DNA from: Calliopum simillimum
Lineage: Eukaryota; Arthropoda; Insecta; Diptera; Lauxaniidae
Length of the DNA stretch: 64,000 nt
Assembly (NCBI GenBank): GCA_951812925.1
Contig: OX638368.1
Location: 66,488,569-66,552,568 of the forward strand
Reading direction: 5' to 3'
Of this stretch, positions 28,419 to 61,643 are shown piece after piece; within the stretch, counting starts at the first letter, position 1, and each line of letters opens with the position of its first letter. Position numbers and translations under genes: made by a program. The notes under the pieces were generated by a model, which had not been told where the DNA came from, did no database searches, and saw nothing but the letters and a program-made list of their open reading frames with translations.

Positions 28419-28617
28419 GGCCTTTTGTCGGTTGACGTTAATGGCGTAAAATAAAATATATAACGAAAAATTCTTTAAAACAAAAAAATTTTAAAAATAT
28501 GTATTTGAATAATTACACTAGTTTACAAATGATTAAAAAAATTTGTCCCATTGAATGCCATTATTCAGTTTATATGTAAAATCGGCTGCTGATTCCGAAA
28601 AATGCATTATTTTTTTT

Positions 28618-29525
28618 TATACCCTACACCCAGGGTATATTCACTTTGTCCTTCCGTTTGTGACGCAGAGAAGGAGGCGTGGTAGATATAGAAAAGTATA
28701 TATATTCTTGATCAGCGTCACCTCCTGAGTCGATAAAGCCATGTCCGTCTGTCTGGCTGGGTGGCTGGCTGTGCGTTGAAATACACTTTTTGGGAAAACT
28801 GAGCAAGATATTTCAATGAAATTTGGTACACTGCCTCCGTCATCAAAGTTAGCTCGGGGGATTGAAAATGAGCGAAATCGGTCAACGGACACGCCTACCG
28901 CCCATACAAAAAATATATTCAAAATGCAATTTTAGGAGTATTTTTCACGACAATTCACCCAAAATACGCATAAATACTAAGAATTGTAAGAGCAAGCTTT
29001 GAAAAAAAACTGAGCAAATTCGGACAAGAGGGCGGGGCACCTCCCATATAAGCAAAAGCTTCAAAACGCTATACTGAAAGCGTTTTATGAGATATTAGAA
29101 CCAAATTTGACTTAGACACTAAGAATCATAAATAAAAGCTCTCAACAAAAACTGGGTGAAATCGGACAAGAGGGCGTGGCACCTCCCATATGAGCAAAAG
29201 CTTCAAAATGCTATACTGAGAGTTTTTTGAGATAATCCAACCAAACTTCACTCAAATACTACAGACTATAAATGCACGCTCTAAGCTAAAACTAGAGGAG
29301 CTCGGACAAGAGGGCGTGGCACCTCCTATATATGCAAAAACGTCAAAACACTATGCTGAAAACGTTTTTCACTCAGACACTAAAATCTATAAATGCAAGC
29401 TGTGAACAAAAACTGGGTGAACTCGGACCAGAGGGCGTAGCACCTCCCATATGAGCAAAATTTTAAAAATACTGCAGTGTAGGGTATTTAATGTTTGGCC
29501 AGGCCAAATTTTACACCCTTACTAG
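28618..29525 (+). mobile_element. DINE-1/INE-1-like helentron, copy a
   Basis: 5' end TATACCCTACACCCAGGGTA; a core TATATATTCTTGATCAGCGT...GAGTCGAT followed by CCATGTCCGTCTGTCTGGCT, which is the conserved fly INE-1 block; then several roughly 120-bp sub-repeats carrying GGCGTGGCACCTCCCATAT. The 3' end has the sub-terminal inverse GTGTAGGGTAT, a hairpin TTGGCCAGGCCAA and terminal CTAG about 17 nt on. It is inserted between Ts in a repeat whose unoccupied relative is at about 45095-45240. Non-autonomous; its short open frames are spurious. Confidence 0.9.
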
Positions 29526-30186
29526 TTTGTCTTTCACGTCGTTTTCGAGATATCGGTTATTTTCGGTTTTTGGACCAAACCCAAAAGATAGTTCCATTTA
29601 AATACTAAGGGCCTTATCGTAAATAAATATTCTCGAGAATTTATTGACTGACTCCCTGGTTTGCAATCGCAAAAAATAATTCATGGAAAGGGAAAATTCA
29701 GTGGCAAAATAATGCTATCGGCAATAAGTTGGGAGCGAGTTTTTTCACTTTTATTTGTTAAATTTACTCCCCAACTTTTTGCTACGGAATACTAATGTAT
29801 AAATTACTAATTATAAACAACGTTTGACAAATTAAAAAATTTAGTGCAACAATTTTAGAGCTTATTGAAATAGCTTTCATATGACTCTAAAGTTTTTAAT
29901 ATCCATCCAAGCGTTTCCAACTTATACTGGTTCTGCTAAAACTGCTTTTCACTTCAATTTTTTTTTTAGGTTACTTTTTGGTGCAAACTTTTGATTTTTA
30001 AAATCCACTCAAATGATCAAATAGACATTTTTTAATTATAAAAGCAAAGCATTCTGCCCTGTTCCTAATATTCCACTTTCACGTGAAAGTGGTTATAAAG
30101 TGGAATGCAAAACTTTTTGAAAAGTCGGCATAGTACTACGACTTTTCAATTAATTTTGCCTTTTTAAAGCTGCTTTATCGATCAAA
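29526..30186. other. Repeat-derived, no gene
   Basis: 29527-29640 (CTTTCACGTCGTTTTCGAGA, TTTTCGGTTTTTGGACCAAA) is the inverse of sequence at 45095-45150. It is therefore the other flank of the repeat that DINE-1 copy a split. The rest is AT-rich with a small hairpin at 30070-30100 (CACTTTCACGTGAAAGTG). Confidence 0.5.
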
Positions 30187-38590: not shown

Positions 38591-39227
38591 TTGCGTACAC
38601 TCGTGCAATTGAATTTTGCAACTATCATTTATGTTTTTAAGAATAGAACTGAATAGGGGTTTAAGGTTATCTCTCCTAACATCATCCTCTGAATTATCGT
38701 TCATACTAAGAAGACTAACGATGGATTCGAAAAATGGCTTAATTTTCTTAACTAATTCATCACTAGAATTCTCAACTTGAACGTTGATGACCGATTCAAT
38801 GTCGGCTACCTCTGTTACATGCTTGGTGGGAATCACACTAGCAGTCTCAACCACTGTGTCTACACTCTCCTCTTCCACCTCAATGATGTCACTTTCCACA
38901 CGCTGCCTCTTGGCAGGAACAACAGGATTTTGTTTCGGCTTGGACCGACCACGATGCAACGAAATTTGAGGAAATTCCTCGGAATTAAATGCAAAAGAAT
39001 TATTATTGTTATTAAATGTAAACGACTTACAACGTTCGTCATATGCAGTATCGCGAGCGTTAGGATCCGCATATGAAGAATTAGAAAAAGATACAACTTT
39101 GGGTTTAAGTTTATTGGCCTTTTCAACTTTTCCTTCAAAAATCTTTTTATAGATCGAACAAAACTTGGACGCAGCTTGATGAGGACCACCGCAATTAGAG
39201 TAATTTAGGGTAATGTGGTTACCTTTT

Positions 39228-40052
39228 TATACCCTACACCCAGGGTATATTCACTTTGTCCTTCCGTTTGTAACGCAGAGAAGGAGGCGTGGCAGGTATA
39301 GAAAAGTATATATATTCTTGATCAGCGTCACCTCTTGAGTCGATATAACCATGTCCGTCTGTCTGGCTGGCTGGCTGGCTGGCTGGGTGGCTGGCTGGCT
39401 GGGTGGCTGGCTGGCTGTGTGTTGAAATACACTTTTTGGGAAAACTGAGCAAGATAATTCAATGAAATTTGGTACGCTGCCTCCGTCGTCAAAGTTAGCT
39501 CGGGGGATTGAAAATGAGCAAAATCGGTCAACGGACACGCCTACCGCCCATACAAAAATTATATTCAAAATGCAATTTTAGGAGTATTTTTCACGACAAT
39601 GCAACCACAATACATATAAGTACTACGAATTGTAAGCGCAAGCTCTGATAAAAATTTGAGCGAATTCGGACAAGAGGGCGTGGCACCTCCCATATAAGCA
39701 AAAGCTTCAAAACGCTATACTGAAAGCGTTTTTTGAGATATTCGAACCAAATTTGACTCAGACACTAAGAATTATAAATGAAAGCTCTCAGCAAAAATTG
39801 GGTGAAATCAGACAAGGGGGCGTGGCACCTCCCATATAAGCAAAAGATTCAAAATGCTATACTGAAAGAGTTTTTTGAGATAATCCAACTAAATTTCACT
39901 CTGACACTAAAAACTATAAATGCAAGCTCTGAACAAAAACTGGGTGTACTCGGACAAGAGGGCGTGGCACCTCCCATATAAGCAAACTTTTCAAAATACT
40001 GCAGTGTAGGGTATTTATTTTTTGGCCAGGCCAAAATTTACACCCTTACTAG
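39228..40052 (+). mobile_element. DINE-1/INE-1-like helentron, copy b
   Basis: Same structure as copy a: TATACCC start, core with GATCAGCGTCACC and a longer GGCT microsatellite (39363-39416), sub-repeats, hairpin TTGGCCAGGCCAA, terminal CTAG at 40049-40052. Nearly identical to copy d (43297-44100), so the two are recent relatives. It is inserted 30 bp inside the TIR element 39198-41554. Confidence 0.92.
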
Positions 40053-40061
40053 TTTTCTTTT

Positions 40062-40710
40062 TATACCCTACACCCAGGGTATATTTACTTTGTCCTTCCG
40101 TTTGTAACGCAGAGAAGGAGGCGTGGCAGATATGGAAAAGTATATATATTCTTGATCAGCGTCACCTCCTGAGTCGATATAGCCATGTCCGTCTGTCTGG
40201 CTGGCTGGCTGGGTAACGGCTGTGTGTGGAAATACATTTTTTGGGAAAACTAAGCAAGATAATTCAATGAAATTTGGTACACAGCCTCCGTCGTCAAAGC
40301 TAGCTCGGGGGATTGAAAATGAGCGAAATCGGTCAACGGACACGCCTACCGCCCATACAAAAAATATCTTCAAAATGCAAATTTTTGAGTATTTTTCTCA
40401 ACAACGCAACCAAAATACACATAAATACTACGAATTGTCAGCGCAAGCTCTGACAAAAAACTGGTCGAATTCGGACAAGAGGGCGTGGCACCTCTCATAT
40501 AAGCAAAAGCTTCAAAACGCTATTCTGAAAATATTTTTTTAGATAATCCAACCAAATTTCACTTAAATACTAAGAACTACAAATGCAAACTCTGAGAAAA
40601 AACTGGGTGAATTCGGAGGGCGTGGCACCTCCCATATTAGCACAATTTTCAAAATACTGCTGTGTAGGGTATTTAATGTTTGGCCAGGCCAAAGGTAACA
40701 CCCTTACTAG
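40062..40710 (+). mobile_element. DINE-1/INE-1-like helentron, copy c (tandem to b)
   Basis: It starts TATACCC only 9 bp after the CTAG of copy b and ends with its own hairpin and CTAG (40707-40710). Diverged from b (shorter GGCT tract, fewer sub-repeats). Head-to-tail pairs are typical of helentrons and of rolling-circle replication past the end. Confidence 0.9.
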
Positions 40711-41554
40711 TTTCTTTTTCGCAAATTTCGACCAAAGTAATGGTAGTAGTTTAGTTTGGTCAATTAATTAGTATTAGTTATCTATTGTTTTCACTATTAT
40801 ATAATTTATAAACTAAAATATTAACTTCTTCAAGCGTGAGGCCAGATAAATTGACAGTATCTAAAAATAGCTGAAAAAGAAAAGTGTTGGGTAATGTGGA
40901 TCACCCTGTCCATTTCCTAAAGTAGTACCGTTATTCGCAACTTTTGTTGACTAAAAGTCGAGTTATATTATTTTAGATTATAATTGCTATAATTGCTGTA
41001 AAGGCTTATTACAGAATATTTTTTTGTAAGATAAACCAAATTCGTACTAACAAATGAATAAGACATAAAGAATACCTAATCATACGTGAAATAGTGCACC
41101 ATAGTACTCAAACTCGGGTGTTCTACACACGTAATTAGCTTTTAAAGGTATAATAGTAATCAGTGTTAAATAATACGGGGTAGGCCACATTACCCGAAAA
41201 CATAACTTTTTTGAAATAATCATTTAATATATAATAGCAATGTAAAAGCAGACGTGCTTATGCATTTTTTCGTTGAATAATAGCTCCGCAAATGCATTAG
41301 AGTGATAAGAATTTTAGAAAACAGAGTTCTGAGGAAATTATTTAGCTATTCAGTACGTACTAAAAAAAGTCATTTTGACCTCACAGCTTATATAAAGAAA
41401 TTGCACATATGTAAGGAGCATAACAGAAAAGCCAAAGAGCGTAAAAAATATGTTTTTCGAGCTTTAATATGCACAAGTAACCAGAATTGTTATATATGGG
41501 AAATAAAAGGGTGCACCACATTACCCACATAGTCCACATTACCCTAACTTACTC
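40711..41554. other. Remainder of the TA-flanked TIR element
   Basis: AT-rich, non-coding apart from short chance frames (longest about 76 codons at 41302-41532). It contains inner copies of the terminal word at 40889 and 41177. Confidence 0.5.
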
Positions 41555-42860: not shown

Positions 42861-43296
42861 TAAAATAATAAAAGTATCCCTGCAGGAAGTGCAGTTTCCA
42901 TTCATAAAATATTCTTTATTTCCAGTGCTCCCTCCCCGGACGGGAGTATATTCTCGAGAATGGTAACGATAAGGCTCTATATGTCTTATTAAAGGTAATT
43001 AAATTACCTACAAATGATATTCACATCACTTTTTGGTTGGTTTGTTAGTTTCGGCAAAATAAATTGATTTCTAAAAAAAAATTATTTTTTTTCGAAAAAA
43101 TGAAACGAGTCAAAATCAACTGCAGATTTATACAAGAAAAAAAAATGTTTAAAATCATTTTGCCTTTTTATATCATAGTCCATATATCTGTTAAGCAAAT
43201 AAGATACTATATAAGAAAATTAATTGAAAAACGCAGAAGTTGTATACAATTCATTGATAAATTACCAAAATACGTTTTTGCTTATTTTTCCATTTT

Positions 43297-44100
43297 TATA
43301 CCCTACACCCAGGGTATATTCACTTTGTCCTTCCGTTTGTAACGCAGAGAAGGAGGCGTGGCAGGTATAGAAAAGTATATATATTCTTGATCAGCGTCAC
43401 CTCCTGAGTCGACATAGCCATGTCCGTCTGTCTGGCTGGCTGGGTGGCTGGCTGGCTGGCTGGCTGGCTGTGTGTTGAAATACACTTTTTGGGAAAACTG
43501 AGCAAGATAATTCAATGAAATTTGGTACACTGCCTCCGTCGTCAAGCTCGGGGGATTGAAAATGAGCAAAATCGGTCAACGGACACGCCTACCGCCCATA
43601 CAAAAATTATATTCAAAATGCAATTTTAGGAATATTTTTCACGACAATGCAACCACAATACATATAAGTACTACGAATTGTAAGCGCAAGCTCTGATAAA
43701 AATTTGAGCGAATTCGGACAAGAGGGCGTGGCACCTCCCATATAAGCAAAAGCTTCAAAACGCTATACTGAAAGCGTTTTTTGAGATATTCGAACCAAAT
43801 TTGACTCAGACACTAAGAATTATAAATGAAAGCTCGCAGCAAAAATTGGGTGAAATCAGACAAGGGGGCGTGGCACCTCCCATATAAGCAAAAGATTTAA
43901 AATGCTATACTGAAAGAGTTTTTTGAGATAATCCAACTAAATTTCACTCTGACACTAAAAACTATAAATCCAAGCTCTGAACAAAAACTGGGTGTACTCG
44001 GACAAGAGGGCGTGGCACCGCCCATATAAGCAAACTTTTCAAAATACTGCAGTGTAGGGTATTTATTTTTTGGCCAGGCCAAAATTTACACCCTTACTAG
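43297..44100 (+). mobile_element. DINE-1/INE-1-like helentron, copy d
   Basis: TATACCC start, INE-1 core, three sub-repeats, TTGGCCAGGCCAA hairpin and terminal CTAG. Differs from copy b by GGCT repeat number, an 8-bp gap near 43545 and a few bases. The unbroken sequence at its target can be read in the other arm of the foldback (about 44785-44830). Confidence 0.92.
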
Positions 44101-44112
44101 TTTTCTATTACA

Positions 44113-44784
44113 CTGTTCGGCAATTTGAAACTTTTTGTTAAAAAAAAATACCCGTGTCTCGTCGTTTTTCTCCAGCATGTCACATTTGTTTTTAATCGAT
44201 TTTTGAAGTTTTTCAATCCACTCTTCATGAAATAAACAAAAGTAACGCATTCTTGAGTTAAATCGATGAATTTAACTATATGATCCTTACATCTGAGATG
44301 TATCATGTGTTCAGAAAACTTAGGCAGGATATTGCGAGGATTTTTTTTTTATGTAGAAAGTTTTAACCCTCTAAAGCCTCCACATGTGGATCATTTTGAC
44401 CCTTTCCTTTAAAAGGAAAGGATTTTAACAATTTTTTGTATTTCGGGATAAAATTTAAACTTTTTAGTATTCAGCAACTAGTAGTGAAATTTTAAAGCAA
44501 ATATTTCTGTAGTTCATTCGGATTCAATATTCCACTGTTTTAGGTGTCATTTTTGTACCTTTTTAAGAAAAGGGTCAAAATGACCCACATGTGGGGGCTT
44601 TAGAGGGTTAAAATTTGCCCTAAAAATATTCCCCGCAATATCCGGCATAATTCAAAAATCGATTACAAAAAAATCTGACGTGCTGGAGAAAAACTATGAG
44701 ACACGGGTATTTTTTTAACGCCTACTTTAAGAATTTTTTGGATTTTCTCATGTGTTTTACAAAAAGTTTCAAATTGTCGAACAG
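44113..44784. mobile_element. CTGTTCG-ended foldback, non-autonomous
   Basis: Ends CTGTTCGGCAATTTGAAACT and the inverse. The arms continue to GTCTCGTCGTTTTTCTCCAG. The inside has an additional hairpin pair, CCCTCTAAAGCC(T/C)CCACATGTG (44380) against CACATGTGGGGGCTTTAGAG (44588). Its ends and sub-ends match those of the coding element 51080-58222, of which it is probably a deletion derivative. Confidence 0.7.
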
Positions 44785-45935
44785 CGCAATACAAAAAAAC
44801 GGAAAAATAGGCAAAACCGCATTTTGGTAATTTATCAATGAATTGTATACATTTCCAATTGATTTTTTTATATAGTATCTTATTTGCTTTACAGATATAT
44901 GGACTGTGATATAAAAAAACAAAATGAAAAAAAAAAAATATTTTTTTTTTAAAAATCAATTTATTTTGCCGAAACTAACAAACCAACCAAAAAGTGATGT
45001 GAACATAATTTTTAGGTAATTAAATTACCTTATGACATATAGCACGTTTAAACACAAACATTGGTTCTTGAGATATTTGTAATTAAATGGAATTATCTTT
45101 TTTTTTGGTCCAAAAACCGAAATTGACCGATATCTCAAAAACGACGTGAAAGAAAAAAGTAATGCGATTTTCGGAATCAGCTGCCAATTTAACATATAAA
45201 ATGAATAATGGCATTCAATGGGAATTTTGGCTGTAAACTAATGTAATAGGCATGCGCTTATTTTACGATTTTCTGATTTTCGTTCATGCCGCCCCCTGAA
45301 ATCCTTCTAATGGTCATAAAAACAAATACTATGAAGTTTCACGGCGATCGGATAACGATAACCCGGCCCGCAAGAGAGGTCAAGGTCAAGTTGAGGTTTC
45401 AGGCAAAACATAATGAAAATTTTTTTTAAACTTAATTAAATTAGTCAAAGCATAACTTTATCTTATAACAAATTGAAACACCTTTCCAACAAGCTATAAT
45501 TGTTAAAAATCGGGTAATAAATACGAATTCTATGAATTTTTCTTTTATCTTTAAGAATTTTTTAAGTGTGTTACTTAATGACATTTATATTTGCTTTTAA
45601 TCCGTTCCTTGATTTGTCATAATTATGTGTTAGAAAATGCATTGATAGATTTATATATAAATCGATCTTTGCAAATATATGACTATAAGTTCAATTAAAA
45701 AAAATTCAATTTCAAATATAAATGTCATTAAGTAACACACTTAAAAAATTCTTAAAGTTATTTGGGAGAACACGCCCTGATAAGGTGGAAACACCTGCAA
45801 TCGGTATTGAATTTGTTCCAAAGGAACAACTATACCAAATCTCAATAAATAACACAAAACAACAATTATGATATATCAATACGTATTAACACACAAACAA
45901 AACTGGCAAAAGTCGGCTTCGCAGCCGGGCAAGGC

Positions 45936-45989
45936 TGGTGCAGTGGTAACGACTTCTGCTACCAACCTGCAGATCCTTGGTTCGACTCC
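45936..45989 (+). promoter_or_regulatory. tRNA-like A and B boxes, unit 1 (repeated in all units)
   Basis: A-box-like TGGTGCAGTGG (45936-45946) and a perfect B box GGTTCGACTCC (45979-45989), 32 nt apart as in a tRNA-type Pol III promoter. B boxes of the other units start at 46527, 47072, 47619, 48164, 48711, 49256, 49800 and 50346. The text resembles a tRNA (AGTGGTAACGACTTCTGCTA) but acceptor and T stems do not close, so it is tRNA-derived, not a tRNA gene. T runs (TTTTT at 46138-46142, just after the ribozyme) could end a Pol III transcript. Confidence 0.65.
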
Positions 45990-46083
45990 CGCCCAGACCA
46001 AAAACACAAAAAGTTTTCAAAACTTGCAATTTTTCAATTATAATTAATTTAGTAAAATAAATATAATTATAATTACAACAAAA

Positions 46084-46130
46084 ATAGTCTGATGAGTCTT
46101 TGTGGCGAAAGACGAAACATATGTCACTAT
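46084..46130 (+). ncRNA. Type I hammerhead ribozyme, unit 1
   Basis: Stem I ATAGT, core CTGATGA (46089-46095), stem II GTCTTT-GTGGCG-AAAGAC, GAA (46114-46116), stem III palindrome ACATATGT, C17 (46125), then the second stem I strand ACTAT. All helices pair perfectly and no conserved core base is missing. Outside, AAAAA before and TTTTT after can add an outer stem I helix across a 7-nt internal loop, the place where natural hammerheads make their activating loop contacts. Self-cleavage after GTC would free monomers of about 546 nt. The palindromic stem III favours action as a dimer. Confidence 0.93.
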
Positions 46131-46631
46131 AGCCGTGTTTTTAATCCGTTCCTTGATTTGTCATAATTATGTGTTAGAAAATGCATTGATAGATTTATAT
46201 ATAAATCGATCTTTGCAAATATATGACTAAAAGTTCAATTAAAAAAAAAAAAATCAATATCAAATATAAATGTCATTAAGTAACACACTTAAAAAATTCT
46301 TAAAGTTATTTGGGAGAACACGCCCTGATAAGGTGGAAACACCTGCAATCGGTATTGAATTTGTTCCAAAGGAACAACTATACCAAATATCAATAAATAA
46401 CACAAAACAACAATTATGATATATCAATACGTATTAACACACAAACAAAACTGGTAAAAGTCGGCTTCGCAGCCGGGCAAGGCTGGTGCAGTGGTACCGA
46501 CTTCTGCTACCAACCTGGAGATCCTTGGTTCGACTCCCGCCCAGACCAAAAACACAAAAAGTTTTCAAAACTTGCAATTTTTCAATTATAATTAATTTAG
46601 TAAAATAAATATAATTATAATTACAAAAAAA

Positions 46632-46678
46632 ATAGTCTGATGAGTCTTTGTGGCGAAAGACGAAACATATGTCACTAT
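46632..46678 (+). ncRNA. Hammerhead ribozyme, unit 2
   Basis: Core, stems and cleavage triplet identical to unit 1; cleavage expected after 46673. Confidence 0.92.
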
Positions 46679-47176
46679 AGCCGTGTTTTTAATCCGTTCC
46701 TTGATTTGTCATAATTATGTGTTAGAAAATGCATTGATAGATTTATATATAAATCGATCTTTGCAAATATATGACTAAAAGTTCAATTAAAAAAAAAATC
46801 AATTTCAAATATAAATGTCATTAAGTAACACACTTAAAAAATTCTTAAAGTTATTTGGGAGAACACGCCCTGATAAGGTGGAAACACCTGCAATCGGTAT
46901 TGAATTTGTTCCAAAGGAACAACTATACCAAATATCAATAAATAACACAAAACAACAATTATGATATATCAATACGTATTAACACACAAACAAAACTGGC
47001 AAAAGTCGGCTTCGCAGCAGGGCAAGGCTGGTGCAGTGGTAACGACTTCTGCTACCAACCTGGCGATCCTTGGTTCGACTCCCGCCCAGACCAAAAACAC
47101 AAAAAGTTTTCAAAACTTGCAATTTTTCAATTATAATTAATTTAGTAAAATAAATATAATTATAATTACAACAAAA

Positions 47177-47223
47177 ATAGTCTGATGAGTCTTTGTGGCG
47201 AAAGACGAAACATATGTCACTAT
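47177..47223 (+). ncRNA. Hammerhead ribozyme, unit 3
   Basis: Identical 47-nt motif; cleavage expected after 47218. Confidence 0.92.
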
Positions 47224-47723
47224 AGCCGTGTTTTTAATCCGTTCCTTGATTTGTCATAATTATGTGTTAGAAAATGCATTGATAGATTTATATATAAATC
47301 GATCTTTGCAAATATATGACTAAAAGTTCAATTAAAAAAAAAAAATCAATTTCAAATATAAATGTCATTAAGTAACACACTTAAAAAATTCTTAAAGTTA
47401 TTTGGGAGAACACGCCCTGATAAGGTGGAAACACCTGCAATCGGTATTGAATTTGTTCCAAAGGAACAACTATACCAAATATCAATACATAACACAAAAC
47501 AACAATTATGATATATCAATACGTATTAACACACAAACAAAACTGGCAAAAGTCGGCTTCGCAGCCGGGCAAGGCTGGTGCAGTGGTAACGACTTCTGCT
47601 ACCAACCTGAAGATCCTTGGTTCGACTCCCGCCCAGACCAAAAACACAAAAAGTTTTCAAAACTTGCAATTTTTCAATTATAATTAATTTAGTAAAATAA
47701 ATATAATTATAATTACAACAAAA

Positions 47724-47770
47724 ATAGTCTGATGAGTCTTTGTGGCGAAAGACGAAACATATGTCACTAT
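47724..47770 (+). ncRNA. Hammerhead ribozyme, unit 4
   Basis: Identical 47-nt motif; cleavage expected after 47765. Confidence 0.92.
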
Positions 47771-48268
47771 AGCCGTGTTTTTAATCCGTTCCTTGATTTG
47801 TCATAATTATGTGTTAGAAAATGCATTGATAGATTTATATATAAATCGATCTTTGCAAATATATGACTAAAAGTTCAATTAAAAAAAAAATCAATTTCAA
47901 ATATAAATGTCATTAAGTAACACACTTAAAAAATTCTTAAAGTTATTTGGGAGAACACGCCCTGATAAGGTGGAAACACCTGCAATCGGTATTGAATTTG
48001 TTCCAAAGGAACAACTATACCAAATATCAATAAATAACACAAAACAACAATTATGATATATCAATACGTATTAACACACAAACAAAACTGGCAAAAGTCG
48101 GCTTCGCAGCCGGGCAAGGCTGGTGCAGTGGTAACGACTTCTGCTACCAACCTGGCGATCCTTGGTTCGACTCCCGCCCAGACCAAAAACACAAAAAGTT
48201 TTCAAAACTTGCAATTTTTCAATTATAATTAATTTAGTAAAATAAATATAATTATAATTACAACAAAA

Positions 48269-48315
48269 ATAGTCTGATGAGTCTTTGTGGCGAAAGACGA
48301 AACATATGTCACTAT
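48269..48315 (+). ncRNA. Hammerhead ribozyme, unit 5
   Basis: Identical 47-nt motif; cleavage expected after 48310. Confidence 0.92.
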
Positions 48316-48815
48316 AGCCGTGTTTTTAATCCGTTCCTTGATTTGTCATAATTATGTGTTAGAAAATGCATTGATAGATTTATATATAAATCGATCTTTG
48401 CAAATATATGACTAAAAGTTCAATTAAAAAAAAAAAATCAATTTCAAATATAAATGTCATTAAGTAACACACTTAAAAAATTCTTAAAGTTATTTGGGAG
48501 AACACGCCCTGATAAGGTGGAAACACCTGCAATCGGTATTGAATTTGTTCCAAAGGAACAACTATACCAAATATCAATACATAACACAAAACAACAATTA
48601 TGATATATCAATACGTATTAACACACAAACAAAACTGGCAAAAGTCGGCTTCGCAGCCGGGCAAGGCTGGTGCAGTGGTAACGACTTCTGCTACCAACCT
48701 GAAGATCCTTGGTTCGACTCCCGCCCAGACCAAAAACACAAAAAGTTTTCAAAACTTGCAATTTTTCAATTATAATTAATTTAGTAAAATAAATATAATT
48801 ATAATTACAACAAAA

Positions 48816-48862
48816 ATAGTCTGATGAGTCTTTGTGGCGAAAGACGAAACATATGTCACTAT
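48816..48862 (+). ncRNA. Hammerhead ribozyme, unit 6
   Basis: Identical 47-nt motif; cleavage expected after 48857. Confidence 0.92.
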
Positions 48863-49360
48863 AGCCGTGTTTTTAATCCGTTCCTTGATTTGCCATAATT
48901 ATGTGTTAGAAAATGCATTGATAGATTTATATATAAATCGATCTTTGCAAATATATGACTAAAAGTTCAATTAAAAAAAAAATCAATTTCAAATATAAAT
49001 GTCATTAAGTAACACACTTAAAAAATTCTTAAAGTTATTTGGGAGAACACGCCCTGATAAGGTGGAAACACCTGCAATCGGTATTGAATTTGTTCCAAAG
49101 GAACAACTATACCAAATATCAATAAATAACACAAAACAACAATTATGATATATCAATACGTATTAACACACAAACAAAACTGGCAAAAGTCGGCTTCGCA
49201 GCCGGGCAAGGCTGGTGCAGTGGTAACGACTTCTGCTACCAACCTGGAGATCCTTGGTTCGACTCCCGCCCAGACCAAAAACACAAAAAGTTTTCAAAAC
49301 TTGCAATTTTTCAATTATAATTAATTTAGTAAAATAAATATAATTATAATTACAACAAAA

Positions 49361-49407
49361 ATAGTCTGATGAGTCTTTGTGGCGAAAGACGAAACATATG
49401 TCACTAT
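49361..49407 (+). ncRNA. Hammerhead ribozyme, unit 7
   Basis: Identical 47-nt motif; the outer T run after it is TTATT rather than TTTTT, which weakens the outer stem I helix in this unit only. Confidence 0.92.
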
Positions 49408-49904
49408 AGCCGTGTTATTAATCCGTTCCTTGATTTGTCATAATTATGTGTTAGAAAATGCATTGATAGATTTATATATAAATCGATCTTTGCAAATATA
49501 TGACTAAAAGTTCAATTAAAAAAAAATCAATTTCAAATATAAATGTCATTAAGTAACACACTTAAAAAGTTCTTAAATTTATTTGGGAGAACACGCCCTG
49601 ATAAGGTGGAAACACCTGCAATCGGTATTGAATTTGTTCCAAAGGAACAACTATACCAAATATCAATAAATAACACAAAACAACAATTATGATATATCAA
49701 TACGTATTAACACACAAACAAAACTGGCAAAAGTCGGCTTCGCAGCCGGGCAAGGCTGGTGCAGTGGTAACGACTTCTGCTACCAACCTGGAGATCCTTG
49801 GTTCGACTCCCGCCCAGACCAAAAACACAAAAAGTTTTCAAAACTTGCAATTTTTCAATTATAATTAATTTAGTAAAATAAATATAATTATAATTACAAA
49901 AAAA

Positions 49905-49951
49905 ATAGTCTGATGAGTCTTTGTGGCGAAAGACGAAACATATGTCACTAT
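49905..49951 (+). ncRNA. Hammerhead ribozyme, unit 8
   Basis: Identical 47-nt motif; cleavage expected after 49946. Confidence 0.92.
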
Positions 49952-50450
49952 AGCCGTGTTTTTAATCCGTTCCTTGATTTGTCATAATTATGTGTTAGAA
50001 AATCCATTGATAGATTTATATATAAATCGATCTTTGCAAATATATGACTAAAAGTTCAATTAAAAAAAAAAATCAATTTCAAATATAAATGTCATTAAGT
50101 AACACACTTAAAAAATTCTTAAAGTTATTTGGGAGAACACGCCCTGATAAGGTGGAAACACCTGCAATCGGTATTGAATTTGTTCCAAAGGAACAACTAT
50201 ACCAAATATCAATAAATAACACAAAACAACAATTATGATATATCAATACGTATTAACACACAAACAAAACTGGCAAAAGTCGGCTTCGCAGCCGGGCAAG
50301 GCTGGTGCAGTGGTAACGACTTCTGCTACCAACCTGGAGATCCTTGGTTCGACTCCCGCCCAGACCAAAAACACAAAAAGTTTTCAAAACTTGCAATTTT
50401 TCAATTATAATTAATTTAGTAAAATAAATATAATTATAATTACAACAAAA

Positions 50451-50497
50451 ATAGTCTGATGAGTCTTTGTGGCGAAAGACGAAACATATGTCACTAT
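50451..50497 (+). ncRNA. Hammerhead ribozyme, unit 9
   Basis: Identical 47-nt motif; the last complete unit, followed by the partial tenth unit that has no second ribozyme. Confidence 0.92.
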
Positions 50498-52020
50498 AGC
50501 CGTGTTTTTAATCCGTTCCTTGATTTGTCATAATTATGTGTTAGAAAATGCATTGATAGATTTATATATAAATCGATCTTTGCAAATATATGACTAAAAG
50601 TTCAATTAAAAAAAAAAAATCAATTTTTCTTTTATCGACATTAGCAAAATTGCCGCAAAATGCTATTCTACTACATATGGTATTTTGCGGCAATTTTGTT
50701 AATGCCGTAAAAGAAAAATTCATAGAATTCGTTTTTATTACCCGATTTTAAACAATTATAGCTTGTTGGAAAGGTATTTCAATTTGTTATAAGATAAAGT
50801 TATGCTTTGACTAATTTAATTAAGTTTAAAAAAAATTTTCATTATTTTTTGCCTGAAACCTCAACTTGACCTTGACCTCTCTTGCGGGCCGGGTTATCGT
50901 TATCCGATCGCCGTGAAACTTCATAGTATTTGTTTTTATGACCATTAGAAGGATTTTAGGGGGCGGCATGAACGAAAATCAGAAAATCGTAAAATAAGCG
51001 CATGCCTGCTAGTGTAATCAATAAACATATGAAAAAATATTATAACAAACTGGCTTTTGCATTTTTTCGTTAGGTAACACTGTTCGACAGTTTCGAACTT
51101 TTTGTAAAACAAACGAAAAAATCTAAAAATTCTTAAAATAGACGTTCAAAAAAATTTCGTATCTCGTGGTTTTTCTCCAGCACGTCACATTTTTTTTTAA
51201 TCGAATTTTGAAGTTTTTAACTCCACTGTACACGAAAAACAAAAATAAAGCATTATTGTGTTAAATCGATGTATTTAACTATATGATCCTTACATCTGAG
51301 GTGCATCTGTTCAGCAAACTTATTCAGAATATTATGGGAATATTTTTGTAGAAAACTTCAACCCTCTAAATCCCCCAAATATGAGTCATTTATACTCTTT
51401 TCCTAAAAAAGTGCAAAAATTACACCTAAAAAGTGGGAATATTGAGTCAATATGTACCACATAAATAATTGCTATACAATTTCGAAACTAGTTGCTGAAC
51501 ACTAAAAAGTCGAGGGCAACAGGGTTAAAATTTTCTACAAAAGTATTCCCCACAATATCCTGCATAAGTTTGCTGAACACATGATACACCTCAAATGTAA
51601 GGATCATATAGTTAAATTCATCGATTTAACACAAGAATGCGGAATTAATTAGCATGCAAGATTATTTCGAAATTGAATAATATCTTGTGCTGCCTCTTGG
51701 GCCTTAAAGTTTGAGAACTTGGGCCAAAAGAGACATATTTTCCAAAAAATATAACTTTTCCTTATTTTCCTTGGACTGTTTAAACAATCTAGTAAAATAT
51801 ATTTTACATTGAATAATATCTTCAGGCAGAAACTGAGCATCGAATTTTATGAATATAGGCCAAAATAGACCTTTTTTTTTTAAAAAAAAAGCATTTTTCA
51901 AACTTTTTGAAATCGTTATTAACCAAATACGGTAAAGTTTCTCCTTGGATTACATAAAAAGACGAAAAATATTTTCGGAATCAGATACATATCTGGAACG
52001 ACGACGTGCATCATAGCTGA

Positions 52021-53049: not shown

Positions 53050-53575
53050 AAATTGGCAATGGCATAGCTGGAGTGTCCCAGAAAACCATCAATTAAGGCT
53101 TGTTGATAGTTTGCCTTATATTTTCTTCCTGTAGAACATCTAGATATTCTTCGTTTAGACTATGAAGCCTTCGGGAAGCATTGGGTATTCCAAAAAACTA
53201 TCAGTTAAAGTTTGTTGATAGTTCACCATAGATTTTTTCCCTCTCGTATACCTAGATATTCTTCGTTTTGACTATGAAGCCTTCGGGTGACCTTCGAACA
53301 CCTTCGGGTGTCACAAAAAACTATCACTTAAAGCTTGTTGATAGTCCGCCATAGATTTTTTCCCTCTCGTATACCTAGATAATCTTCGTTTTGACTATGA
53401 AGCCCTCGGGTGACCTTCGGAAAACTTCGGGTGTTTCAAAAAACTATTAGTTAAAACTTGTTGAAAGCTTGCCATAGATATTTTCCCTCTAGTGTACCTA
53501 GATATTCTTCGTTTTGACTATTAAGCCTTCGGGTGGTCTTCGGAAACCTTTGTGTATGGTATAGAAACATTCCCA
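53050..53575 (+). repeat. Minisatellite, about 120-bp period, four units
   Basis: TAGATATTCTTCGTT recurs at 53141, 53253, 53376 (one change) and 53499, each followed by ACTATGAAGCCTTCGGG and AAAAAACTAT(C/T)A.TTAAA. Confidence 0.85.
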
Positions 53576-59903: not shown

Positions 59904-61643
59904 ATGGAGATTATACGGAAAGCCCGGAGGAAACTGGACACACATTTCCCAGGCTGTGTTAGGTGCGAAGAGTCCTGCGAACCAACCAGAGATACAAAAT
60001 TCCTGGTGGCTACCAGACGGAACTTCTCCTTAGCCCGTAAAATTTTTACCATTGAAAAAGTTAGATGGGCAGTCTCCACTTTTAACCCATTTAAATCTCC
60101 TGGGGCGGATAATATTCAACCTTGCCTATTGCAGAAAGGTATAGATATACTGGCACCTACTCTAACTAATATCTTTAGGCTAAGCCTAGAACTAGGAATA
60201 GTACCTGAAGATTGGACTAAAGCCCGAGTTGCTTTTATTCCTAAAGCAGGCAAAAAGGCGGACCACACGCCCAAAGCCTATCGGCCTATAAGTCTAACCT
60301 CATTTCTTCTGAAAACAATGGAGAAAATTTTAGATCAGTATCTTAGAAGTGTGTACCTTGAGGCTTCACCTCTACACCCTGAACAATATGCTTACCAATC
60401 GGGTAAATCAACTGAAACCGCCATACATAACCTCACGACTAAAATCGAGAAGGCTTTAGGGGACAAGGAAGTAGCCCTCTGTTCATCTATTGACATACAG
60501 GGAGCTTTTGACAACACGACTTTTAAGTCAATTGAGGAATCACTGATCAGGAAGGGAATACCCGAAATGATCATTGATTGGGTCAACATGCTTAAAAATA
60601 GGACAATCATCTATGAAGCGGGCACAGAAAGATTAACTGTAAGGACAACTAAAGGTTGCCCCCAGGGAGGTGTACTGTCACCGCTCTTATGGATTCTAGT
60701 CATCGATGAACTACTAGAAATTCTCGATGATCACAAATTCGAGGTCCAGGGCTTTGCTGACGATCTGATTATTATGGTTAGAGGCAAGTTTGACTCTACC
60801 GTAACTGAACGAATGCAACTAGCTCTCAACTTAGCTCTAGGCTGGTGTCGAGCTGGCAGCGCGGGAGCTGGAGTTGTGGGACCAAGATTGCAGAAAGCAA
60901 TTGCAATGGGAAAAAAAGCTTCTATTTTTCAGGCCGAGGTCCACGCTTTAGAGTTGTGTGCTAGAGAATGTCAAAGAAGGGGCACCTCCGGCACCGACAT
61001 ACACATTTACTCGGACAGCCAAGCAACTCTAAAATCACTAATGGCTTTTCCAATGCACTCCAAGCTTGTCTGGGAGTGTTTTGAACTTCTTCAAGCCCTA
61101 TCCAGGAGGAATGAAGTTACTCTAGTTTGGATACCAGGGCACGAGGGGCATGAAGGCAACGAAAGGGCAGACTGCTTGGCCAAGAGGGGCGCACTCAATA
61201 CTTTCATAGGGCCAGAACCCTTCTGCGGAGTAAACAACAGTTTTAAAAATAACTTAATACGGGAATGGGAAAAGGAAAGCCTCTCCGATAACTGGAGAGC
61301 CAAAGAAGGTATGCGACAGGCGAAGAGGCTGATCGATCCAAAACATATTAAGGCTGAAGCTGTTCTAAATCTCAGCAGGAAAGATATAAAAACGTACAGT
61401 GAGATAATGACAGGTCACTGTAAACTTAATTATCACCTAAAAAAGATGGGTCTGGTAGACGATGATTCCTGCAGACTCTGTTTAGAGGATTTGGAAACAG
61501 CAGAGCATGTGCTATGTGCATGCCCTGCTGCGTTTAGACGCAGAATTAAGTACCTAGGAGCTGAGATTTTAGATCCAGGTGACATAGGTAAAATTAATCC
61601 TATGGCAGTAACAAGATTTATAGATAGTCTGGAACTGTTTTGA
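59904..61643 (+). CDS. LOA-like LINE RT fused by deletion to RNase H
   Basis: Open frame of 579 codons. RT: FKSPGADNIQPCLLQKG, AYRPISLTSFLLKTMEKILD, YAYQSGKST, palm SSIDIQGAFDNTTF, CPQGGVLSPLLW and catalytic GFADDLIIMV (about 289-298). At residue 318 (about 60855) the text jumps from LALGWC, the start of the RT thumb, to GAGVVGPR, the start of RNase H, so the thumb and the first RNase H strand with its DGS aspartate are missing. Later RNase H residues are present (EVHALELCARE, SDSQATLKSL, NERADCLAKRG), followed by a C-terminal zinc-like region CRLCLEDLETAEHVLCACP. The reading frame survives the deletion, but the enzyme should be inactive. Confidence 0.85.
   Translation: MEIIRKARRKLDTHFPGCVRCEESCEPTRDTKFLVATRRNFSLARKIFTIEKVRWAVSTFNPFKSPGADNIQPCLLQKGIDILAPTLTNIFRLSLELGIVPEDWTKARVAFIPKAGKKADHTPKAYRPISLTSFLLKTMEKILDQYLRSVYLEASPLHPEQYAYQSGKSTETAIHNLTTKIEKALGDKEVALCSSIDIQGAFDNTTFKSIEESLIRKGIPEMIIDWVNMLKNRTIIYEAGTERLTVRTTKGCPQGGVLSPLLWILVIDELLEILDDHKFEVQGFADDLIIMVRGKFDSTVTERMQLALNLALGWCRAGSAGAGVVGPRLQKAIAMGKKASIFQAEVHALELCARECQRRGTSGTDIHIYSDSQATLKSLMAFPMHSKLVWECFELLQALSRRNEVTLVWIPGHEGHEGNERADCLAKRGALNTFIGPEPFCGVNNSFKNNLIREWEKESLSDNWRAKEGMRQAKRLIDPKHIKAEAVLNLSRKDIKTYSEIMTGHCKLNYHLKKMGLVDDDSCRLCLEDLETAEHVLCACPAAFRRRIKYLGAEILDPGDIGKINPMAVTRFIDSLELF

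Follow-up and report, generated by a model that had tools for sequence, protein, structure and literature searches.

The locus described here lies in a 64,000-nt window of the genome of the lauxaniid fly Calliopum simillimum (assembly GCA_951812925.1, contig OX638368.1, positions 66,488,569 to 66,552,568 of the forward strand; coordinates below are those of the window), where a satellite-like insert of 5,072 bp interrupts one arm of a palindromic, foldback-like element. The interrupted left arm (45248..45547, plus strand) and the intact right arm (50708..51007, minus strand) are 300 bp long, inverted relative to each other and 98.3% identical. Nearly all of the insert is a head-to-tail array of about 9.2 units on the plus strand (45594..50621), nine of which bear a hammerhead ribozyme motif. 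Units are numbered here from one predicted ribozyme cut site to the next, with 47219..47765 (plus strand, 547 bp) as the reference, and by this measure there are eight complete units of 544-548 bp with a GC content of 31-32% and one partial unit at either end. On the same scale, the array runs from about unit position 13 to 129, or to 134 when a final AATTT is counted.

The original prediction for this DNA held that nine units of about 546 bp each carry a 47-nt hammerhead, and this is confirmed, with a type I motif identical in 9/9 copies between 46084 and 50497, recurring every 544-548 bp and far above chance. The nine motifs, all on the plus strand, lie at 46084..46130, 46632..46678, 47177..47223, 47724..47770, 48269..48315, 48816..48862, 49361..49407, 49905..49951 and 50451..50497, with cuts predicted after 46125, 46673, 47218, 47765, 48310, 48857, 49402, 49946 and 50492, respectively. 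A descriptor requiring CTGANGA, GAAA and at least 5, 4 and 2 pairs in stems I, II and III, G-U pairs allowed, returned nine plus-strand matches in the window, all of them within the array, and none on the minus strand; dinucleotide shuffles of the window minus the array, searched on both strands, yielded 13 sites in 254 Mb, or 0.0033 per 64 kb. Stems I and II are 5 and 6 bp long, and stem III is an 8-nt palindrome, ACAUAUGU, that is its own reverse complement. As stem III can form at most 2 bp in cis, with an AUAU loop, and 8 bp between two copies, cleavage is predicted to proceed best in dimers. The active monomer fold has an ensemble probability of 0.001 in a model that ignores tertiary contacts, and the double hammerhead is calculated at -19.8 kcal/mol against a cofold minimum of -21.0; ribozyme segments folded alone are no more stable than their shuffles (z 0.90 and 0.52), which argues against a stable fold. 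Minimal hammerheads acting as dimers are described for Penelope-like elements (PLEs) in the cited part of a review (PMC7761336), and newt hammerheads, according to the excerpt cited, likewise work with two copies (PMC6155905). The covariance-model check that had been suggested returned no Rfam family at its gathering score in the window. Relaxed thresholds placed the type III hammerhead model at 9/9 places (22.7-23.8 bits, and 24.2 bits in a second scan, against a gathering score of 48.5), along with sub-threshold matches of the RAGATH-1 model at the ribozyme place, and the minimal stem III is a likely cause of the missing gathering match.

Each unit that holds the relevant part (9/9) also contains an A box, TGGTGCAGTGG, and a B box, GGTTCGACTCC, of the RNA polymerase III (Pol III) type, set 32 nt apart and with the end of the B box 94 nt ahead of the ribozyme. 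In the reference unit the pair occupies 47576..47629 on the plus strand (A box 47576-47586, B box 47619-47629), and the other eight pairs, also on the plus strand, start at 45936, 46484, 47029, 48121, 48668, 49213, 49757 and 50303. No A and B pair arose in 142.8 Mb of shuffles, and the B box alone is expected 0.039 times per 64 kb. The boxes thus stand as predicted, and of the "tRNA-like Pol III promoter" claimed for each unit the two boxes and their tRNA-like spacing hold, while a tRNA itself does not: ARAGORN found no gene, Rfam gave no tRNA match at E up to 10, and a true tRNA is rejected. The array accordingly shares A/B spacing with tRNA-derived short interspersed elements (SINEs) and lacks their recognisable tRNA ancestry, and the label tRNA-like refers to the two boxes alone. 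Pol III terminates at runs of T. Between the B box (unit 401-411) and the ribozyme (unit 506 onwards), all eight complete units contain a T4 run (unit 436-439) and a T5 run (unit 452-456), which start 25 and 41 nt past the B box and lie within 47654..47674 of the reference unit, on the plus strand, as possible Pol III stops. Because of these runs Pol III RNA would probably stop ahead of the ribozyme, so that the expectation of a Pol III transcript carrying the ribozyme is weakened and finds no support here. If the boxes work, the predicted product is an RNA of about 90-110 nt without the ribozyme, counted from the start point usual in tRNA genes, and if the T runs do stop Pol III, multimeric RNAs would come from read-through. 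As a separate observation, the dinucleotide 8-9 nt before each B box (46518-46519 in the first complete unit) reads GA, CA, AA or GC among the units, and three of the 18 hand-listed changes fall on these two adjacent bases (simulation P 0.018), for which RNA modification is a conceivable cause.

The unit RNA is predicted to be well folded, both as a linear molecule (z -5.3, 0/100 shuffles as stable) and as a circle (z -4.6, 0/60 shuffles as stable). Among 13 windows of 90 nt, the strongest signals lie at unit 181-270 (z -3.8) and 226-315 (z -3.1), and we delimit a structured domain at unit 181-274 (47399..47492, plus strand; z -3.30, 1/200 shuffles as stable) that may be a putative protein-binding part. 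Since the longest ATG open reading frame (ORF) on the sense strand of the unit has 59 codons, the unit could at most be a non-autonomous rider of PLEs. An ORF of 49 codons at unit 144-293 (for example 47362-47511) overlaps the structured domain and is open in 9/9 units holding it; a coding role is not supported, as an ORF that long is found in 27% of shuffled units, and comparison with Pfam and with proteins of similar length brought up nothing related.

The edges of the insert, which the original prediction did not cover, are the new element of this follow-up. A 15-bp direct repeat, AATTTTTCTTTTATC, flanks the insert at 45535..45549 and 50622..50636 and is the longest word common to both boundaries; when boundaries were paired at random within the window, 98 of 397,468 pairs had a repeat of at least 10 bp. 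Its most plausible interpretation is a target site duplication, five bases of which (AATTT) could instead belong to the array end, leaving at least 10 bp. With one repeat copy removed, the joined flanks align with the opposite arm over 124 columns with five mismatches and one 1-nt gap, located two bases ahead of the join, and with the insert left in, homology to the opposite arm ends at the join from either side. Because the joined flanks align straight through to it, the sister arm serves as the empty site. The left end of the insert (45550..45593, minus strand) is the reverse complement of unit 178-135, identical in 44/44 bases, and the direct units that follow begin near unit 13. The right end lies at unit 134 (129 if the common AATTT is assigned to the target), and the two termini are therefore neighbouring bases of the unit in opposite orientation. 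The interval between them (unit 135-178; 47353..47396 on the plus strand of the reference unit) consists of 23 A, 6 C, 2 G and 13 T, contains a hairpin TTAAGT-AACAC-ACTTAA at unit 150-166 (-1.6 kcal/mol) and may be the interval between two reverse transcription starts. The only run of at least eight A (A8-A13) sits just ahead of the right end. These junctions provide independent evidence that supports the retrozyme-like origin first suggested for the array.

Three further observations concern the palindromic element itself. Its middle (50649-50695) forms a near-perfect hairpin that scores 26 bits against a microRNA model with a gathering score of 93 and is best read as the centre of the element. 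At its outer ends (45222-45248 and 51007-51032) stand CTAATGTAAT on the left and CTAGTGTAAT on the right, one or two bases off each other, which are perhaps its own target duplication. Beyond the 98% arms, more inverted matches of 80-84% occur (44501-44784 and 51080-51467), and the element may be nested in an inverted structure of greater size and age or flanked by members of a single repeat family.

We propose a model in which a Penelope-like reverse transcriptase wrote the insert into the chromosome by target priming, in a single event and with a circular or multimeric ribozyme RNA as template, and we consider the chance that this is correct to be about even. The model draws on the anole PLE protein, which cuts and extends both DNA strands, prefers ATT at the cleavage site and starts reverse transcription internally at two sites, the interval between which is the genomic 30-40 bp tail (PMC11167929); the starts map to a stem loop rich in A and C, 111-118 nt into the ORF, and the hammerhead cut is at +26 (PMC11167929). 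In the portion of the rotifer study cited, some Penelopes begin with an inverted pseudo-LTR (pseudo-long terminal repeat), one has a 31-bp tail, and duplications of 8-10 bp accompany some copies and are absent from others (PMC3846280). In the fly, a long transcript of a parent array, probably made by read-through, would be cut by paired hammerheads, and a released unit would be closed by RtcB ligase. With the structured domain (about unit 181-274) as its binding site, a Penelope-like protein would then cut both strands of AT-rich DNA. One DNA end would prime at unit 134, where the target AAATT can pair with AAUUU of the RNA at unit 130-134, and extension from it would run through nine rounds of the circle or along an uncut multimer; the inferred bottom nick would follow AAATT if the repeat is 15 bp long. 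The other DNA end would prime at about unit 178 and stop at 135. With priming at 130-134 and about 178, the second strand would run up to the first primer and end there; such priming also requires an RNA that continues past the first site, that is a circle or a longer multimer, as opposed to ordinary priming at a 3′ end. The template would be either a circle or an uncut multimer. Joining and fill-in would leave the direct repeat, and at least one two-unit block would later have been duplicated in place.

Long interspersed nuclear elements (LINEs) could account for the same junctions if a LINE enzyme primed a linear multimeric RNA next to the A-run and the opposite strand supplied a second primer that produced the inverted 5′ end, as in twin priming. 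Target duplications of 15 bp and inverted 5′ ends are usual for LINEs, and the window holds ORFs for LINE-type reverse transcriptases: of its 20 ORFs of at least 120 aa, six match the Pfam models RVT_1, RNase H or zf-RVT and two more an endonuclease model, in a LINE-like architecture. The A8-A13 run, placed as a LINE poly(A) would be, counts towards this explanation and against the PLE model. The inverted piece, however, consists of the 44 nt that immediately follow the right end on the unit, where ordinary twin priming uses upstream sequence; we estimate the odds of the two abutting exactly by chance at roughly 1 in 100 (a few of 547 positions), and the primer end AAATT fits AAUUU rather than the A-run. 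We regard LINE-driven insertion as unlikely, if still deserving of attention. If a staggered break in the chromosome had captured a DNA circle or multimer, the inverted 44 nt could be a templated repair patch, and tandem DNA circles do exist in flies; a 15-bp duplication with an exactly abutting inverted end is nevertheless not the usual form of end joining, and none of the results points to a DNA circle, so that this origin appears very improbable.

The age structure of the array bears on whether it was written in one step, as the PLE model would have it. Nine units were compared, the eight complete ones and the first partial one, and each departs from their consensus by 1 to 5 bases. Units u3 and u5 have the same sequence and u2 and u4 differ by one base, which indicates that a two-unit block was duplicated in place. 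Variable states private to one unit make up 14 of 18, or 16 of 17 once the duplicated pair is collapsed, which against a coalescent for nine units is no significant excess (P 0.13; 0.07 with the pair collapsed). Star-like divergence was accordingly rejected as proof of a one-step array, and these P values at best suggest that all units arose in one step. Ordinary satellite growth, in which unequal exchange within the foldback-like element enlarged a short insertion (one unit or a few) and ribozyme and boxes are now inert passengers, fits the two-unit duplication and the non-significant star, and the part of PMC4079207 cited reports a foldback element from which a fly satellite arose. The unchanged 47-nt ribozyme and both boxes in 9/9 units tell against it, weakly as the units are very similar overall, and the flanking duplication and inverted end would still need a retrotransposition-like start. 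We hold satellite growth of this kind to be distinctly unlikely as the full account.

Besides the A-run and the unproven simultaneity of the units, several observations weigh against the PLE model. It is built on one insertion only, and no PLE ORF was seen among the 20 window ORFs of at least 120 aa, none of which matches a GIY-YIG model. The putative start sites follow the cut of the ribozyme by 134 and 178 nt, where the anole element has about 85-92; the hairpin has little stability (-1.6 kcal/mol), and A and T, not A and C, dominate unit 135-178. The right end has AATTT in common with the target, whereas the PLE start is not homologous to its target, and the ATT match depends on taking the repeat as 15 bp and not 10. 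Finally, the anole system mainly used uncut RNA as its substrate and could do without the ribozyme in vitro (PMC11167929), which tells against a requirement for circles.

Retrozymes of animals have been described both as circular RNA and as tandem DNA, and conversion between the two is a proposal in the papers cited here. In the part of PMC7229834 cited, circles as templates and PLEs as likely movers are likewise proposals, with PLEs named strong candidates, and retrozyme repeats are said in the cited portion of a review to show no motif that betrays their partner (PMC7761336). With both termini legible and the empty site preserved in the sister arm, this insertion makes the PLE route testable: it specifies the start points of reverse transcription, the enzyme to be sought and the expected recurrence of ends at unit 134 and 178. 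It points, too, to a way in which a satellite array can be written in one step as opposed to slow growth. Tentatively, we further consider it possible that the unit is a Penelope-driven ribozyme SINE, a PLE parasite with Pol III-type boxes, a dimer hammerhead and a Penelope start site, whose circles are reverse-transcribed round and round into broken chromosomal DNA. If this is true, a single hit writes a ready-made satellite array.

No exact relative of the unit was found in collections of viral and genome contigs, which hold few eukaryotes and say little here, and comparison of the unit with the LINE regions of the window gave no significant match beyond A/T-rich pieces. A 72% match of unit 92-186 at 28454-28545 looked, on inspection of the sequence, like A/T-rich chance and was set aside. 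An element of about 0.6-0.9 kb occurs in four copies that are 86-96% alike (28610-29535, 39223-40061, 40057-40720 and 43293-44109), with internal repeats of 140-142 bp (three arrays by Tandem Repeats Finder) and a CTGG microsatellite in two copies; its plan resembles that of Helentron-like DINE elements, to which it may belong. A 123-bp tandem array of about four copies lies at 53073-53550. For the LINE ORF at 59904-61640, the highest identity among 120 of 457 matches listed is to the stalk-eyed fly Teleopsis dalmanni (76% over 35% of the query), and the higher-scoring named matches listed include the psyllids Diaphorina citri and Cyamophila willieti. The fly match lends support, short of proof, to a dipteran host.

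Placed among known systems, the array resembles the metazoan non-LTR retrozymes of coral, mussel and axolotl, which in the cited part of PMC7229834 share with it a type I hammerhead in head-to-tail tandem without a large ORF, a GC content under 45-50% (here 31-32% in 8/8 complete units), a target duplication of more than 4 bp (here 15 bp, or at least 10 without AATTT) and a stable predicted RNA fold, the circular z of -4.6 being compatible with circular RNA. Dimer dependence, predicted here, is likewise described for the axolotl retrozyme in the part of the source cited. The unit of 544-548 bp nonetheless exceeds the 150-450 bp reported there (PMC7229834), and Pol III-type boxes stand in 9/9 units whereas retrozymes, as far as the cited portion of PMC7761336 goes, seem to be without promoters; because of unit size and promoter we do not file the array as a strict published animal retrozyme.

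Pol III boxes also belong to the schistosome SINE-like elements. The Smalpha and Sjalpha satellites and W elements of schistosomes (PMC8490949), likened here by the description in the part cited, likewise have a type I hammerhead in SINE-like repeats and differ from the array in host phylum and unit size. The Dolichopoda satellite pDo500, likened by its cited title alone, is likewise an insect satellite with a hammerhead (PMC2808323). Tetris of Drosophila virilis, in the portion cited, likewise has tandem repeats within a fly foldback element (PMC4079207), but these derive from its own arms, whereas the array described here was inserted separately, contains ribozymes and is flanked by a direct repeat of its own. 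Among the literature matches listed, at the level of title and abstract, there is no description of such a junction or of a fly repeat of this plan.

PLEs offer a parallel for the junctions. As in PLEs, a minimal dimer-type hammerhead lies upstream of two close internal putative starts, and an inverted left end, tandem copies and a target duplication are present; the ends at unit 134 and 178, in this single insertion, are 44 nt apart with one inverted and a hairpin with an AACAC loop between them, and the structured domain lies downstream of the putative starts like the part of the anole PLE RNA needed for insertion (+20 to +172). PLEs encode a telomerase-like reverse transcriptase and, in their canonical members, a GIY-YIG endonuclease. 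Unlike them, the unit has neither a reverse transcriptase nor a GIY-YIG ORF, its ribozyme-to-start distance is longer and its interval is 44 nt as opposed to 30-40. We class the array as a variant retrozyme that a Penelope-like enzyme probably moved, a route for retrozymes that is not new as an idea and to which this locus adds evidence at the level of the junctions.

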